A program made the translations under genes and the position numbers. Shown piece by piece: positions 3,791-29,600 of a stretch of 64,000 bases of DNA. The first letter of the stretch is position 1, and each line of letters starts with the position of its first letter. The notes below the pieces were generated by a model. That model worked only from the letters and a program-made list of their open reading frames with translations. It was not told the origin of the DNA and did no database searches. This DNA is from Chrysoperla carnea (Eukaryota; Arthropoda; Insecta; Neuroptera; Chrysopidae). Location: NCBI RefSeq assembly GCF_905475395.1, contig NC_058337.1, positions 11,458,983 to 11,522,982 on the forward strand, written 5' to 3'.

Positions 3791-4967
3791 TGTAGATAGA
3801 AAATCGAAAATGTGCACAATTAAATTAGATTGAACTTTTGAACCCTGAGAGGGGGTAGGACGCCTAAATTTTGGTAGAACTCAACAGATTGTTATTTCTT
3901 GTACCAATATAAATTTAATTAACAAAGTTTCACTGTGGTACATATTTTTCCGTTAAAATATGCTATATTTCCCTGTACTAATAGTTAATAAAACAATTTT
4001 TATTCTGCTGTTCCACTCCTTATTGGTTTTTTTCCCTTGTGCAAGAGATGGCATTACGTATTTAGTAATGTCATTTGGTTAACATTTAACTATTACCAAA
4101 AAAATCTACGAGATGACACTCGCATATGATTATCGCATAAAATTAAAATCTTGATGGAAATTTTTCGGGTAAGTACCCGCCATTTAATTTTCCCGAAGTA
4201 AAATCATAGTATTACTGGATCACAATAAAGTTTTATTAATTGAGTTGTTTAAGTATTAAATGTCCGATAATGGAGTGTTATTTCAAATTCAAAGTATGTA
4301 TGAATTACTACTGAATTATGAACACAAAAGTTTGATATGTGTTTAATTTCTGACTTAAAGCCGCCAATTTGGCGATACTCATCGAATGCACTTCTGTACT
4401 TACGTGAACTTACGATCACTAGAAATTGAATTTATTATGATGAACTTATAAATGTAAATTAAATTAAAAAAAAAAAAAACTTTGATGTAAATAAAAATCG
4501 ATATTTACAGTTAATTTTTATTAAATGAATTTGATTATCGAAAAATGGTTCCAACAAAAAGTATTACCTTTTATTATAAAAATGTAAAAGTGTTTTTTCA
4601 ATTAATTTAATAGTTTTGAAATAAAATCTTTTCATCAATCCACTTTTAAACTCAATAATTTTTATTTGAAATATTTTTCTCGATAAAGAAAACAAAATTC
4701 ATATTTAATCGGAAAATATATTTTGATCTCAATTTTCATTCACTACTTTCATTTGTCTAATAACAAAATTGCTACGTTTTCAATACGTAATTTTCGTGTT
4801 GATTATAAAATAAAAAAATTAAAAATAAAGTGCAATGATTTTCTAAAAAAATCGATTTTTTTAATGAATATGTTTTTTAATAAACCTAGAATTTACTAAT
4901 TAATAGATTAAATTAATTTTTGTTTACAATATATTATTATTTGAAAATTAAATGCGTTTTATTAAAG
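3791..4967. other. intergenic, very AT-rich
   Basis: No gene, RNA or clear repeat boundary recognised. Long A/T tracts dominate 4440-4930. Confidence 0.4.
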
Positions 4968-4980
4968 TAGAACAATTTTG
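4968..4980. repeat. 13-bp direct repeat, left copy (candidate target-site duplication)
   Basis: TAGAACAATTTTG ends exactly where the left arm of the palindrome begins. The same 13 bases occur at 7017-7029, just outside the right side. Confidence 0.55.
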
Positions 4981-5045
4981 CATTTTGTTAAAATATATCC
5001 CCTTAAGGACCCACAATAAAAATATTTAGCTAGATTATAAAATTA

Positions 5046-5100
5046 TTAATTAGCTAGACCGGTTTCGATTGCTTTGGCAATCCTCTTCAGTAGCATTAAA
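5046..5100 (-). ncRNA. hammerhead-ribozyme-like motif (type I), left arm
   Basis: Mirror copy of the motif at 6859-6913, read on the minus strand: CTGAAGA, a stem II hairpin, GAAACCGGTC, and flanking GCTA/TAGC that can form stem I. Predicted cleavage lies between 5057 and 5056. The same caveat applies: one extra G in stem II. Confidence 0.5.
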
Positions 5101-5642
5101 CCTCTTAAAATTAAAAAGTCTTAAAATTAAAAAATATTTACAAATCCGAAAAAAGAACCGCATCAATCTGAAACAAATAATAATAAAATATTACCCTTAA
5201 AATTAAAATAAAATTATTTACCCGATTATAATAATAATAAATCTTTATGTTACACCCTCTAAAATAATGTAACTGCCTGCTTTCACCTAAAACACAATAA
5301 AATATTAAGTTTTAATCCTAAGATAGGATTATCGTTATAAAAATATCAGAAAACTAAGGGATTAAACCTGAAGATAAAATGTAAGATAAGAAACGTTGTA
5401 AATATAAAATAAAAAACACAGAAATAAAAATAAAAATAAAGAGAAAATTAGATTACCAACAAATTAAAAATTTTTATCCTCGGTATACCTAAAACAGAAT
5501 AAATAATTAGAATTTAGAAAAACCTGCAACAAACCAAAATAAAATTAAATGAAAATAAGCAAATTAAAAACAAAAATAAAAAATAAAAATAAAATTAATT
5601 AAAGAACAATAGAATAAGTATTACCAAATGAAGTAAAATGGT

Positions 5643-5782
5643 GTACCTAAAACAGAAGAAATTATTAATTAGCGTACCTAAAACAGAAGAAATTATTAAT
5701 TAGTGTACCTAAAACAGAAGAAATTATTAGTTAGTGTATCTAAAACAGAAGAAGTTATTAGTTAGTGTACCTAAAACAGAAT
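5643..5782. repeat. 31-bp tandem repeat, about 4.5 units
   Basis: Units beginning GTACCTAAAACAGAAGAAAT start at 5643, 5674, 5705, 5736 and 5767 with a few substitutions. The array recurs in inverted form in the right arm (6177-6316). Related single units lie near 5482 and 6465. Confidence 0.85.
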
Positions 5783-6176
5783 AAAATATAAAATAAATAA
5801 AAAAATGAAAGTGAGCAAATTATAAAAATACAAGAAAATAAGTTGAAAAAATAAAAAATTTTACCAAATGACAAACTGAAACAAACAAAAAATCAAATTA
5901 AGTAAAAATGTTAAGCAAAAATAAAAAATAAAAATTAAATCAAAAAATAATAATAGGAAAGATAAATAAAAAAGATGAAAAATAGCATAAAATATCGATT
6001 CTCGAGACAACACAAATGAAACAGGTAACTAAAAGAAACCCTGCCCAAATTGTGTTGTTTTTCGATCACCATTCAAATAAAACAGGTAAAAAGTGTACAC
6101 CACAAGTATAATTAAGCAATAAACTTAATCGTCACATGTACTCTAGTTACAACTATATTTATTTATTTTATATTTT

Positions 6177-6316
6177 ATTCTGTTTTAGGTACACTAACTA
6201 ATAACTTCTTCTGTTTTAGGTACACTAACTAATAATTTCTTCTGTTTTAGGTACACTAATTAATAATTTCTTCTGTTTTAGGTACGCTAATTAATAATTT
6301 CTTCTGTTTTAGGTAC
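6177..6316. repeat. 31-bp tandem repeat, inverted copy
   Basis: Exact mirror of the array at 5643-5782. Substitutions within units are mirrored too, so the array predates the formation of the palindrome. Confidence 0.85.
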
Positions 6317-6858
6317 ACCATTTTACTTCATTTGGTAATACTTATTCTATTGTTCTTTAATTAATTTTATTTTTATTTTTTATTTTTGTTTTTAATTTGC
6401 TTATTTTCATTTAATTTTATTTTGGTTTGTTGCAGGTTTTTCTAAATTCTAATTATTTATTCTGTTTTAGGTATACCGAGGATAAAAATTTTTAATTTGT
6501 TGGTAATCTAATTTTCTCTTTATTTTTATTTTTATTTCTGTGTTTTTTATTTTATATTTACAACGTTTCTTATCTTACATTTTATCTTCAGGTTTAATCC
6601 CTTAGTTTTCTGATATTTTTATAACGATAATCCTATCTTAGGATTAAAACTTAATATTTTATTGTGTTTTAGGTGAAAGCAGGCAGTTACATTATTTTAG
6701 AGGGTGTAACATAAAGATTTATTATTATTATAATCGGGTAAATAATTTTATTTTAATTTTAAGGGTAATATTTTATTATTATTTGTTTCAGATTGATGCG
6801 GTTCTTTTTTCGGATTTGTAAATATTTTTTAATTTTAAGACTTTTTAATTTTAAGAGG

Positions 6859-6913
6859 TTTAATGCTACTGAAGAGGATTGCCAAAGCAATCGAAACCGG
6901 TCTAGCTAATTAA
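6859..6913 (+). ncRNA. hammerhead-ribozyme-like motif (type I), right arm
   Basis: Order in the sequence: TTTAATGCTA, CTGAAGA (6869-6875, fits CUGANGA), a hairpin with GATTGC/GCAATC stem and CAAA loop, GAA, ACCGGT (3+3 bp stem III without loop), C (6902), TAGCTAATTAA. GCTA/TAGC pairs as stem I, extended by TTAAT/ATTAA across a 2-nt bulge. This is the layout of minimal type I hammerheads with a very short stem III, as in Schistosoma and Penelope-like elements. Deviation: one extra G between CTGAAGA and the stem II helix, which would have to bulge. Activity is therefore uncertain. Confidence 0.55.
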
Positions 6914-7016
6914 TAATTTTATAATCTAGCTAAATATTTTTATTGTGGGTCCTTAAGGGGATATATTTTAACAAAATGCATAATACAGCCCACAGAAATG
7001 CTCATCTTAATTTGAA

Positions 7017-7029
7017 TAGAACAATTTTG
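7017..7029. repeat. 13-bp direct repeat, right copy
   Basis: TAGAACAATTTTG, identical to 4968-4980. With that copy it brackets the palindrome plus its one-sided extension. Confidence 0.55.
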
Positions 7030-8500
7030 TTTACAGCTAACAAATTTTAAATAAAAATTTATTAAAATTAAAAGTTTATGTACATCAATTTTAATGCAAT
7101 AACTGGAAATAATTAGCGATTAGTTAGCGATTTTAATATCACAACTGCATTTTACTTATTTATATACAAGATTAGGTTAAATATTTTTACTAAAAATAAG
7201 CATAAATCATTTTCTATTCATACACTGAGTGAGTGTTTATTTTAATCGTCGCGTCGGACACAATAATTCATATCTCCTACCAAAACGCTGGTACATAACT
7301 AGAGAAACCAACGTGATACGTAAACGTAATGGGTTAAGGTGATATTCTATCTCTTATCACTTGCAAAACCGAGTCAGAGGGTCGAAAACAAATCCAAGGT
7401 CAATAAATTATCCTAAACATTTCTCATTAACAGGCCACTAAGAACTTACAGGACATACTGTTTTCAAAACAGTACAACAATCACTTCCTGCGCAGGTACA
7501 AAATTTGATAACATGCTTATTTAGCGTTGTGTATCACACTCGTTTGGTCCTAGAGGCGATAGCAAATTTTCCAGGATATTTGTTAAAAGAATGAAAATTA
7601 TCAGGAATGGTAGTACTCATTTTAGTAAAGAACATCCGCCATGATTGCCTACATTCAATAGGGGAGAGGAGGAAAAATTAACCCTACAATCATCATTGAT
7701 ATTGATATCATTGTACTGCTATACTATTTACTATATTAACGATCGCGATTGCAATAAATTCAAAGCCGTCTTTACCCGGGGGCGAGGTTTTTTTTTTTTG
7801 GGGGGGGGGGGGGGCGGTGTTGCTAGCTGATCGAAAAATACTAAACAAACATTCACTATAATAAAATTATTATTTTAAAACAAAAAAGAGGGCAAAATGT
7901 AAATTAGATCGTCTGATTTTTGTACTCCAGCGCTCAATATGGCTAGACGACCCTTTTAAAATTTATGTATGTCTCACGTGACTGTCTAAACTTGAGGCAC
8001 GATTTATCTAGGTCCTCATGCTTTTCATCTTTGTAACAAATACCCTGGAAATTTTGCAGTAAAATAATTTTTATTTAAAAAAAAAAAAAAAAAACTGGAA
8101 TAAAAACCTCTGTATATTAAGTCCGAAGCTATTCGGCATAACCTTGCTCGAATCTCATCATATTCTTAAATATTATATATTTTTCTATAAGGATAGAGAG
8201 TTTCAAACACTTCATAATTTTTTCGTTTATTTTATGATTTATTGGTGCATTGTAAATCAAATCAACCTTTCTGTGAGTTGGCAAGTTATTCAAGTATAAC
8301 TGCGCCCATAATCGTTACATGAACGAATTTTGGACCGTAATCAACCAGATCACGAAATTAAAAATTGTATGTTCCAATATTTTCATAAATCTTGTTTCGT
8401 TTGTCATAAAAAATTTTTTTTTTTATATATATAAAAATAAACACAAAATACAAGCAACATGATAGTTTCCAATTATGGTTGCATGATAGTTTCCATGGTG
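7030..8500. other. intergenic, no gene recognised
   Basis: Contains a T10/G14 homopolymer junction at about 7789-7814, an A18 run near 8079, and otherwise AT-rich unique-looking sequence. The ORF at 7645-7830 runs into the homopolymer and is not credible. Confidence 0.4.
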
Positions 8501-11614: not shown

Positions 11615-14600
11615 TCAGCTAGGTGGTATTGCTTTAGCCAATTGACCATTGCCAACTTTTGGCCGTGAACCAAACCATGACATTTTCCATTCTAGGGTTT
11701 CATGTAACAAACGTTCTTCTTCCGGTGAGAACTTTAAAAGTGTTGCAACAGCACGTGTTAAATGTTTAGCTTCGTATTCACGACTAGTTAAAAATTTAAT
11801 AATAACATGCTTTAAATATTTAAAATTAATATCATCCTCATCAGTATTGGTGTTTTGTTTTGATGCTGATGCTGCTGATGTTCCTGAATCATTTGTACCA
11901 ACGTATTTAGTTGTTTGTGATGTAGGTTGTAACACTGCTGCTGGTGTATTTGATGATGTATTACTATTATTTATTGATTGTAAATTAATGGTGTTATCAT
12001 TTAAATTATCTACTTGTGTATCTGAATCATTCGATCTTAATTCACGTTGTAATGTTTTCTTCATGATAGCTAATCGTTGTTGTAGTACTTTTATATTCTG
12101 AAACCAAAAGATTACCAACTGAGTTAACTGTCTAAATACCTTGGAATGACTATGTTGAGGATCCGGGATTGTATTATTGATTTAGCTTCAACCCTTCAGC
12201 ACTCGCGTTATGAGTATTTTGCTCAAGCTCGATTTAAAACATACTATAAATAACTTTTATTTTTCAAATGGTATATATGTTTTGAAATATGTTCAACAGT
12301 TTTTTAAAGTGCGAAAATTTCTCTCATCACGGGAGTGAAGGTGTAAATAAAAAAATATTCACTTCGGAAATTTTCGGGCCTGTTTCTGTACTTTCGTTAA
12401 ACTTTGTACAACCTATATTACTCAGTAAATTTTAAAAACTTTTAATAGAAATATGGTGATATTAGTTAAAATGAAGGGTATTAAAAAATAAATTTATATA
12501 AAATTATATAGAGTTTATGATTTGAGCAAGAACGGTTTACGCGAGTGCTGACGGGTTAAAAAAGAAAAAATAATAATAAAGAGACGTAGTGAGCCTCATC
12601 TCCATAAGCTCAGGGTAGAACTTAATACTTTACTATGCAAACATGTTCTCTGTAGTTTGATAAATAGCTAGTCGTGCAATTTTTTCGCACCTTGTACCTT
12701 GTGTTGTACGCTCTGTACCAATGGAACTGAGAAAAGAAAGTTTTTACAGGGTGTACTAAAGTAAGTTTAAATTTTATTGACTTGCTGCGCAATAGTAAGA
12801 AATCTGACAGACACAAGGTGCACGACTATCGATTCGTCTTTGAGAATTTAAAAACCTTGAACTATGTCTTCTTACAGTGTATTGTGTGTAAACAAACTTT
12901 AAACAATATTGTAAAATACAAAAAAAATTACTTCTTTCTCGTTTTAAAATGATAATTATTACCAAATGTTATTTTTCCATTTAAATTTTCTACCTATCTT
13001 AATTTTGATCTTCAATGTTACGGCAAAAAGTTTTGAATGAAATTTATAGGAAATTTCATGTTCTACAAATTTGGTTATCACCATTTTTAATATATCAAGG
13101 GTCGTTAAATATATATTTAGCAATAGCCATATTGAATAAGTTTGGAGGGCTATAAATAAAAACCTATGCATTATTCAGGAAAAAGTTTTAAGTAAAGATA
13201 TAGAAAATGTTATTATCTACAAAAATAATCCCTACGCTAATCCAAATTTGAAATCATAAAACATCAAAAATCAATAAGGCGACTAGAAAATGTGAAAAAA
13301 ATTTGAAAGTTTAGTAAAAAAACCGCAGATTTTCGGCTGAGATGCTACTCTTGAAAATTGCGAGTTCGTAAAGAATATCACACAGTCTGGTAATATGATT
13401 TTTTGTGTGATATTCTTTATGAGCTCGCAGGTCGCAAAAATGCTATCACTGAAGATGAAAAATAAATTTAAGATTCAGGGTGGAATGTTTGTGCTCTATA
13501 ATGGAACTAATAGAAATGAATAATTACATTGGGCATACCAAACGTAAAATTGTTTAAGAAGAAAAAACGAATTAATAAGAAGTAAACACCGCATTGTAGC
13601 ATAATTATTGTTATATAAAATAATATAATAATTAAAATATATCCATACATACCTTATCTCGTTCTAAAACATCTTCTTCTAATTTATTAACATTCGATTT
13701 TAAACTTGTAATTTCTGATTCTGTTTTTGATAATTGCGAATCTTTATCTAAGACTACTCTTTCTAAATCAGCTAATCGGTTTGATAACTCAGCCAATTCA
13801 GTATCTTGATTTGCAATTCGTTGACGTGCAATTTCAACTTCTTGTGATACTTGTGCATTTCGTAATAATGTTGCATCTTTATCATTACGTTCTCTATAAA
13901 ATTTCAAAAAATATATTATAAATAGCAAGTTACAAATAATATTACAGTAATTCTAGCCGAAATGCTATATAGTAAATCGCATTTTTGGGGGGAAGCTCGA
14001 ATTTTTGGTTACGGTTAGGATGGTCAAAGATAAATTTGAAAAGCCGGGATGCTACCTTTTGGGGGAACACTCTCTAAATATAGGTCCCATGCATTTTTTG
14101 CGTAAGTCACATACTAAACAATCTACTAAAAAGTTAGTGCAAAATTTGAGACAAATAATTTTCCTCTTTGCGATTTAAGCAAGCGAAAGGGATGGAAAAA
14201 AAGTCTCAATGAAAATTATAGACAGCATAACGGGCAATAACATTTATATAAATAATTGTTTACTATGATTCGTTATTCTCGAATTTGGCCAGAGGTCGCC
14301 AAAGTTGCGCACTCTCGAACAAACCGCATATAAAGTTATTTAAAAGCAGCTTATGCGCCTCTAAAACATTAATAACGCTATTTGAAAGTAAAAAACTCAT
14401 ATATATGTTGCTGTTATGGAATTATTGCAATATGAGCATCGTAAAATTTCAAAATATTTTGTTTCAAATTTTGCAGTAACTTTCCAGTAGATTGTTTAAT
14501 ATGTGACTTACGCAAAAAATACATACCACCATTTTTGTAGAGAATTTTATTATCTTTTTTATATTTCTCTCCTCTTTGTTATTTATAAAAAAACAACTTT

Positions 14601-26600: not shown

Positions 26601-29600
26601 AGCTTGATATTTCTTTTCGTTTTTGATTTATCGTTATCTCAGACGGACAGACAAACGGACAACCGGAAATGGACTGATTAGGTAATTTTATGAACACCTA
26701 TATCAAAATTTTGTTCGAAGCATCAATATTTTTAAACGTTACAAACTTGGGACTAAACTTAGTATACCTTGATATATTTCATATATACATGGTATAAAAA
26801 TTGCTAAAGTGGGGAAAACCGATTTTTTGCACAAAAAAAAAGACAGAAAATTTGATTTTTAAAAAAGGGGTCGTGGTTAAACAATGAGTTGCCCTAAAAC
26901 CAAAGAAAACGGGAATTTACAAACTATAATGCATACGTTATATATACAGTGCCCACTGATGTTTTGATCAACTGATCAAAATAGTTGGTAAATTTCACTC
27001 TTTCTTTGCTTTTTCGCGGATTCATCATGCATATACAAAAATAATAATTGCGCAGATGTTTTAGGGAATAAAATGCTTCTTTTCTTATTTTAAATTATCT
27101 TAAAATGTTATGTTACCGATCGCAAACGATCATTTTTTTCGTTTTTGTAGTACTACAATCCCCCTTTTTGTTTTATTGTTAAAATACTTTTTCCTTTTTT
27201 TTTGTGCAAAAAACCGGTTTTTCGCGCTTTTCCGTTTATTTTTAAATAACTCCCTACAATCCGATTTTTTCTAAAGTATTTTTTCTTAATAACAGCTAAT
27301 TAATTTTTATAGGAAAAGGTCAATTATCAAATATTGCAGTATGAAAAATGATTAAAACAAAATTTATTGGAAATATTATTCTCAATAATTTTTATTATAT
27401 GAATTTTCACATAAAATTAATTTTTACCGAGATTTACACCTTGGTGGACACCAACAATCTGGTGGCCACTCTTTACAGAAACTTAGGTCGAGAAACTTAG
27501 ATGAAGATTTCCCGTGGAACTACTTCGTACTTCTTTTGAAATTTCGCTCTTTTTCTTAACTCAAATCTCGATGATTACTGGATTATATTTTATTCCGAAT
27601 TTTTATTCAATTTTTTGCCATAAAATTTTTATGGTTATTTGTTTGTATCTATATATGTATATAAATTAGCAAAACATTTTTCCTTAAAACGAATTTTTAA
27701 TCCATTTATAAAGAGTACGGTAGCCATAAATATCTAATCCAGTCAATAAGCCGGTAAAAAGTGTCGATACTGAAAAAGCTGGGAAACAGTACCGATCTAC
27801 CGATTTTAATCAAACTTTTAATTAAGTGTTTATAGGACCCCAAGAAACAGCAAACTTAACCTAGTCTTAGAGGGCATAGGACCTCAGCGGGGAGCATATG
27901 TAGTCCAAAATTTTTTTGAAATACTTATTTTGGCTTAAAATTGTCATGTAGTAGGTATTTAAGGTCGTTGAATACGAATCCGATGTCAGATTACACTGAT
28001 TCTGTCACCTTTTCCGAAAGTCGCGCAGTTTTGGCGTGAAATTTCACTTTTTTGGCACAAAAAGCGCAAACCAAGTAATTATCGTACAAACTGTGCTCTG
28101 CAGGGGTGTTTTTGGTCGCTGATTACGAATTTGATGTCAGATTATCGGATTCTATCACATCTTCTGAAAATCGTGCCATTTTTGGCACAAAAAAATATTA
28201 AATATTGTTGTTGGAAATACTAAATTTTATATTTACACAATTATATCAATGTATTAGTAGGTTTCTAGAGGCTATGTTAGGTTAGGTTAGGTTAGAGTGG
28301 CTGTCCTGGGGTGGGACACACTTAGACCATAGGGTCCGTTTAAAGGCTATGTTAGAAAAAAATATTTAATTTTTAGTTACTGGCAAAAACTACACATTTT
28401 CGAAAGGCGTGGCAGAATCCGTGTAATCTGATATCGGATTCATACTCAGCTACAAAAAATACCATTCAGATGACAATTTTAAACTAAAATAAGCATTTCA
28501 AAAAAAATTTGCGCTACATAGGCCCCCCGAGGTGGAGTTTTATGACCTCTATGACTAGGTTAAGATTACTCAATGTTCCTCGGGATTCTATAAACACGTT
28601 ACAAAAAGTTTTATCATAATCGGTGCTGTTTCCCAACTTTCCCGTACATCCCAGCTTATTGACTGTACTATTCTAGAAAAAAATTGTGCAGTAGATGGTT
28701 GAAGATCAAACATAGGCACAATTGTATTTCGAAGAAATATATGTACCGTACGAAATTTTGCGATTATATAGATGGTGTCCATAGTTTTGGAATTTATTCT
28801 TGATATCAAAACATTACAAAAACTTAATATAAAGATAAACATGAGTCCGAAAACGGTATCCTTTGGAACTACAGTCATCAGAAATTTCGTGCACTTTTTC
28901 TAATTTTTGGAGAATCCATTGGGGTTTTGAGAAAATATTCTGAATAAAGGTTATTTTTATAAAAAATATTTTTGTTATTTTAAGTTGTTAAAATTAATGC
29001 TTTTTCGAAAACTATTATATAGATAGAGCAAAAAAGTTTGCACGTGCAGACGCTCACCAAATTAGCAACGAGTAATATACACTATAAGAGTATAATTACG
29101 ATTATCTAATTCATACTGATGATGACTACATGGTAGTCGAAATAAGTATATTTTAAAGACAAAACGAGAACTACTCTATAATGATTTGGATTCAGAAAAG
29201 TTGAATAATACTAGAAAAAATCTAAAATAGAGCTAATTAAACCGTGGGTATTTGTACTATTCAAATCTTCTCCAGAACGTAAAAAGAAATTAATATTGAC
29301 ATACCGAAATATTCCAATTACTTGTAGATGTTGGTGGCGAGATTAAAACTAACCAAGTAAGTTGCCAGCCCTGGCCCAAACCTTGTTCGAGGCTAATAAA
29401 TCGAGCGTGGTTTATCAAATCTTCCTCAATCCCTGGTCAAGGTTAATAAATAAAGGCTTGGTCTGTCAGTCATTGTCTAAGTTTGGGCTTTCTTTGATTT
29501 ACCAAGTCTTGGTATGCTAAGCCTTATCCGAGGCTAACGGGCAACGTGCCCTGGTCGATAACTTATCCTATTCATCCTATTTATTTTTTGAAAATTGTAA

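Follow-up and report, generated by a model that had tools for sequence, protein, structure and literature searches.

A variant hammerhead motif in a Penelope-like element of Chrysoperla carnea, with genomic cDNA ends at its predicted cleavage site

Hammerhead motifs of Penelope-like retroelements (PLEs) were reportedly described by Cervera and de la Pena in 2014 and by Lunse, Weinberg and Breaker in 2017. Such PLE hammerheads are an established class, and the accessible portions of two papers attribute to them a poor stem III and possible action as dimers (PMC6155905, PMC7761336). In Poseidon of Anolis carolinensis (PAc), the enzyme cleaves each of the two target strands and extends it, and two adjacent reverse transcription start sites explain the tail; mutants of the hammerhead were without effect on insertion in vitro, and RNA-seq yielded no ends at the hammerhead site (Frangieh et al. 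2024, PMC11167929). For the Penelope families of Adineta vaga, the part of the source that was available describes an optional tail of 31 bp on one of the inverted pseudo-LTRs (pLTRs) (PMC3846280).

The DNA analysed here, referred to as the window, is a stretch of 64,000 nt from Chrysoperla carnea NC_058337.1, which carries a minimal type I hammerhead at 6859-6913 on the forward strand, mirrored at 5046-5100 on the reverse strand. The presence of the motif on both strands is explained by the palindrome in which it lies. In common with the PLE hammerheads, as far as the accessible portions of PMC6155905 and PMC7761336 describe them, it combines a minimal type I form, a pLTR adjoining the start of an ORF, a weak stem III and expected action as a dimer, and as in PAc (PMC11167929) it occupies the pLTR-ORF junction. 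It differs from the former, as described in the same portions, by an extra nucleotide before stem II, which is found in two families, and by cDNA ends located at the scissile bond. The reading that we prefer, with a probability of roughly 0.8, is that the motif is the hammerhead of an EN-containing PLE whose RNA self-cleaves at 6902/6903 and that the cut RNA sometimes templates target-primed insertion on both strands.

Re-reading of both strands bore out the letters and coordinates of the original prediction. Stem I consists of 5 + 4 pairs, TTAAT/ATTAA (6860-6864/6909-6913) and GCTA/TAGC (6865-6868/6903-6906), and encloses the core CTGAAGA (6869-6875), a 6-bp stem II with the loop CAAA (6877-6882/6887-6892), GAA (6893-6895), the self-complementary stem III sequence ACCGGT (6896-6901) and C17 (6902). 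The forward motif was recovered by sequence, co-folding, a strict descriptor and a covariance model built from a second PLE family (family 2), and cleavage is predicted at 6902/6903. That the inverted second copy would carry the motif on the opposite strand was likewise confirmed by its sequence and by the family-2 covariance model; here cleavage is predicted at 5057/5056, with C17 opposite 5057. Both the type I core, CUGANGA ... GAAA ... UH, and three helices in type I order are present.

One departure from the consensus, the extra G claimed at stem II, was verified at 6876. It follows A9 and precedes the first pair of stem II (10.1-11.1), a position at which the consensus has no residue and family 2 has U. 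The extra nucleotide was not treated as excluding a type I hammerhead because known hammerheads show single insertions at this place, as the available part of PMC3705267 indicates. The plus hammerhead of chrysanthemum chlorotic mottle viroid described there also has a single additional residue separating A9 from G10.1, but that residue is A, in contrast to the G or U found here, and no common descent is claimed. In the viroid hammerhead, according to the same part of the source, G at the extra position is strongly detrimental and U is favourable (PMC3705267). The window motif is a genuine hammerhead ribozyme, a variant of a kind already known.

A stem III of 3 bp, as originally proposed, is impossible in the monomer, given that ACCGGT has no loop. 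Within one molecule this sequence can form a single A-U pair with a CCGG cap, and between two molecules it forms a duplex of 6 bp; stem III therefore requires two molecules, and in co-folding helix III of the window hammerhead formed solely between them. In the two-copy co-fold, the 6-bp stem III duplex was accompanied by the stem II hairpin of each molecule and by a GCUA/UAGC stem I formed between the molecules. In the minimum-energy fold of the monomer, the core letters were paired and the structure was not a hammerhead, and its folding energy barely surpassed that of shuffled sequences (z -1.84; 8 of 200 shuffles equal or better). The original suggestion that a dimer might be needed agrees with the self-complementary stem III, with the co-fold and with the published PLE hammerheads. 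Amphibian and axolotl hammerheads are similar in having a one-pair helix III with a palindromic tetraloop cap and are active as dimers, but they occur in short tandem retrozymes, as opposed to the PLE coding unit found here, in so far as the available part of that source covers them (PMC7229834).

The strict descriptor (0 or 1 extra nucleotide, stem II of at least 4 bp, stem I of 4 bp) found two sites in the window, the motif and its mirror, as against two hits in total over 200 dinucleotide shuffles. The original prediction had named a background-level covariance score as grounds for rejection, and on this point the outcome was divided. With Rfam models there were no matches at gathering scores across the whole window and none at E <= 10 in 4400-7600, so the motif did not reach the Rfam gathering threshold. 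The covariance model based solely on two family-2 sequences, on the other hand, detected both window sites at 23.0 bits (E 0.0066). They ranked directly after the model's own seed at 29114, and the next match scored 17.9 bits (E 0.1). The seed site (29114-29143, forward strand) is a decayed family-2 PLE hammerhead with core and stem II intact. A genome-wide search with RF00163 gave two weak places below the cut-off, neither being the motif, and was dropped, as 11 of 14 control genomes gave equal signals below the cut-off.

The motif sits in the pLTR of a PLE, upstream of an ORF of 866 aa in which reverse transcriptase (RVT_1, 53.6 bits; Pfam cut-off 29.6) is followed by a GIY-YIG endonuclease domain scoring 21.9 bits, slightly below the cut-off of 22.6 (E 2.1e-4). 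This order within a single ORF, with GIY-YIG narrowly sub-cut-off, is that of EN-containing PLEs, as are the tandem and inverted pLTRs, the tail and the short target duplication. PLE units occur in tandem with a spacing of 3794 bp, and the first ATG of the reading frame (6976-6978, forward strand) lies 74 nt downstream of the cleavage site. In the 559-Mb genome the motif of this family (family 1) was found at 261 places with up to 3 mismatches, the reversed-pattern control giving 0. An initial DNA search had returned 42 matches with 40 of 784 candidates scored. Different loci were 90.7-100% identical, with a median of 96.8%. Tandem repeats of 31 bp, at 5636-5790 (reverse strand) in the left arm and 6170-6324 (forward strand) in the right arm, lie in the non-coding part of the element, and their number varies among loci.

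The original prediction had not recognised the palindrome as a PLE insertion. BLAST against the unit resolved it into two 5'-truncated PLE copies with their 3' ends outward, a left cDNA arm at 4981-6149 on the reverse strand with a tail-minus 3' end and a right arm at 6158-7016 on the forward strand with a tail-plus 3' end, the junction lying near 6150-6157. The tail, an extension of 38 nt (6979-7016, forward strand), is present at the right end alone, and the whole is flanked by a 13-bp target duplication, TAGAACAATTTTG, at 4968-4980 and 7017-7029. The arms reach unit positions ~2679 and ~3026, which implies that two cDNAs stopped at different places. On these features of its sequence the palindrome is a single insertion, apparently the product of target-primed reverse transcription that used both strands. 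Inverted arms that are long and nearly 100% identical could also stem from a hairpin formed in assembly or sequencing, but such an artefact would not account for unequal cDNA lengths, a 13-bp target duplication and like anatomy at many unrelated places in the genome, and its probability is negligible.

Exactly one tail-bearing end was found in each of the 42 head-to-head insertions scored, comprising 34 complete insertions that were measured (16 of family 1 and 18 of family 2) and 8 more (L084-L090, L097/L098). The 34 were every complete pair among the loci retrieved, 18 of them picked for close spacing, and tails were scored by local alignment. The count leaves aside L033, L034, L045 and L049, in which one end was seen, the diverged L091 and loci read at one end only, as well as L041 and L042, which agree with the one-tail rule by BLAST against the unit. 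Target duplications measured 11-14 bp in 33 of the 34; L068 gave none. Within a locus, the arms differed by at most one mismatch over the compared stretch in 13 of 15 loci, the exceptions being L048, whose arms differ owing to unequal arm length, and L038, with 6 mismatches and 41 gap columns. At L097 and L098, a palindrome bluntly joined at the cleavage end is seemingly split by a later insertion of ~0.9 kb, which has an 8-bp duplication, TATAGCTA, and appears hAT-like by eye.

Head-to-head inverted pLTRs and short target duplications are shared with the Adineta vaga families, for which the available part of PMC3846280 favours self-priming on an antisense template. Self-priming is not favoured here, since the window cDNAs stop at unequal points and every insertion carries a target duplication and a single tail; these features fit better with priming on both target strands. 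No difference in start site between the strands was reported for PAc (PMC11167929), whereas here both kinds of start are represented once in every insertion. The strict rule of exactly one tail in every scored case is an addition of the present analysis and a concrete constraint on the mechanism of PLE insertion.

Cleavage of the RNA by the ribozyme ahead of copying should leave some cDNAs ending at TAGCTAAT, directly after C17. The ends of family-1 cDNAs were read with a 42-nt probe starting 8 nt past the bond, for which 100 of 281 perfect matches were listed; these contain no mismatch and follow genome order as far as C4, and they constitute a non-random sample. Among the 100, 57 had the perfect motif upstream and 43 did not. 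All 43 were read and sorted by eye: 13 had an altered motif, 3 ended in the core, 19 ended exactly at the bond, 7 ended between bond and probe, and one rearranged case (L092) was set aside. A scripted tally wrongly assigns copies that carry a 3-nt insertion and adds an arm of L096 from outside the 43. Exact ends at the bond thus made up 19 of the 29 family-1 cDNA ends in the motif region among the 100 matches listed, and represented 13 loci, compared with an expectation of about 1 in 41 per end. The enrichment corresponds to p ~4e-24 by arms if the 41 positions are assumed to be equally likely; p-values by loci were computed with 22 and 16 loci, for which a recount gives 21 and 15.

These ends are read as the footprint of cleavage in vivo, which the genomic sequence suggests. 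Together with the match to the family-2 model, the ends of other copies at the bond equivalent to 6902/6903 support the original hammerhead reading. Most templates would nevertheless have been uncleaved at the bond, since 70 of the 100 family-1 arms among the 281 matches run through the motif. The presence of genomic cDNA ends at the site differs from PAc, for which RNA-seq ends there were lacking (PMC11167929). In the openly licensed literature, no earlier report of the extra nucleotide or of insertion ends at the bond was recognised beyond PMC11167929 and PMC3846280. What appears to be new, alongside the one-tail rule, is genomic evidence pointing to cutting in vivo and to the cut RNA as a template. 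Insertion ends at the scissile bond allow this question to be tested with genome sequence by itself, wherever a species carries young PLE copies.

The same ends might arise if 6903 were a transcription start site and the cDNAs had run to the 5' ends of capped RNAs. That cDNAs do reach RNA 5' ends is indicated by several short family-2 palindromes, the longest arms of which begin at a recurrent (T)GCAGTCC resembling a start site. However, the family-1 ends fall on the one bond specified beforehand by the hammerhead model, about 1 of 41 places, and 70 of the 100 listed arms derive from RNAs that start farther upstream. The sequence TC|TAGC at 6902/6903 is, we presume, unlike an insect initiator, which also counts against a start site, and this explanation is considered unlikely.

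Trimming of the cDNAs and their joining at the self-complementary TAGCTA would place ends at 6903 without any action of a ribozyme. In 6 of the 13 exact loci (L084-L087, L101, L111) the arms overlap by 2 or 6 nt within this sequence, so microhomology joining could contribute. The other 7 (L088, L089, L093, L096, L097/L098, L100, L104) share the same end, with C17 absent, but adjoin filler or target DNA or have a blunt join; being without a TAGCTA overlap, they cannot be explained by its self-complementarity, and trimming as the general cause is very unlikely. Where the partner arm was readable, it too ended at the bond in 10 of 11 exact loci; it was shorter in L089 and extended past the bond in 0 of 11. 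This agreement between partners, combined with identical arms and one tail, suggests that the template was either a single RNA or two sister RNAs that were paired and shared the same fate.

Further PLE ORFs in the genome are 47-51% identical to that of family 1. At two checked family-2 loci (L054, L055; ORFs 47% and 48% identical), a motif occupies the equivalent position and consists of CTGATGA, an extra T (U), the hairpin GACTAC-TTG-GTAGTC, GAA and a self-complementary AATACGTATT. Between families 1 and 2, two pairs of stem II are altered on both sides with pairing retained, a covariation observed across these two families, the sole independent ones. With up to 3 mismatches the family-2 motif was found at 668 places (reversed control, 0); this total and another of 289 rest on different mismatch limits and are not comparable. 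Nine family-2 arms had no perfect motif, 5 with an altered motif and 4 ending inside the motif region, and among these 4, drawn from candidates chosen by eye, none ended at the predicted bond. The footprint is present in the family with the extra G but absent from that with the extra U (0 of 4 ends), which is opposite to the preference of the viroid hammerhead for U over G.

It may be asked whether the hammerhead is a dead relic, a non-cleaving passenger that is identical among copies solely through recent spread of the family. The extra G and the broken monomer fold are compatible with this, and identical copies offer no test of selection. Both the footprint at the bond and the retention of core, stem II pairing, extra position and stem III self-complementarity in families whose proteins are 47-48% identical argue otherwise, and make a relic quite unlikely.

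In the preferred reading, that of a cleaving PLE hammerhead, the RNA would self-cleave at 6902/6903, probably through two hammerheads joined via the self-complementary stem III, leaving an RNA that starts with UAGCUAAU. The PLE enzyme would make a staggered cut of ~12 bp, and each target strand would prime reverse transcription, which would begin at two sites close to the start of the ORF, one tail-minus and one tail-plus. Both cDNAs would reach the RNA 5' end or stop short of it, and their head-to-head joining would produce the palindrome. Some family-1 insertions would have used a ribozyme-cleaved template, with the cDNA terminating at the scissile bond; others, among them the window copy, would have been made from a template still intact at that point. 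The motif, the element, the target duplications, the tail rule and the cDNA ends at the bond may be regarded as established at the level of sequence; from them we infer the ribozyme as maker of the RNA ends, its dimeric action and the sequence of events.

As a tentative and rather doubtful extension, the hammerhead might act as a pairing device for template RNAs, sisters being joined via stem III and cleaved or spared together. With similar reserve, one such RNA pair might serve both target strands and give one cDNA with a tail and one without. If true, this would explain the common source of the arms, their shared cleavage state and the presence of exactly one tail.

Several other candidates were considered. 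Strings of the form CTGANGAAGTCA...TGACGAAAC (L059-L063) were dropped as hammerheads, the descriptor showing no other hammerhead parts. A pattern for hammerheads without the extra nucleotide, restricted to stem II GA...TC, matched at 3 places, all of which can be read as family-2 copies with additional letters. For a distant PLE (33% identity; L056, L057), no motif was present in the stretches examined, which may not contain its pLTR. Elsewhere in the window, at 11615-12118 on the reverse strand, lies an exon-like ORF in which a GRIP domain, as in golgins, matches Pfam PF01465 at 59.9 bits. In several of the short family-2 palindromes L072-L081, the longest arm starts at a recurrent (T)GCAGTCCGCC, which lies upstream of the family-2 hammerhead and is probably the 5' end, or start site, of the RNA. 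Among the short family-2 palindromes L064-L071, centre lengths recur, with 34 nt seen in five cases and 17 nt in three, as would be the case if cDNA synthesis had favoured stopping points.
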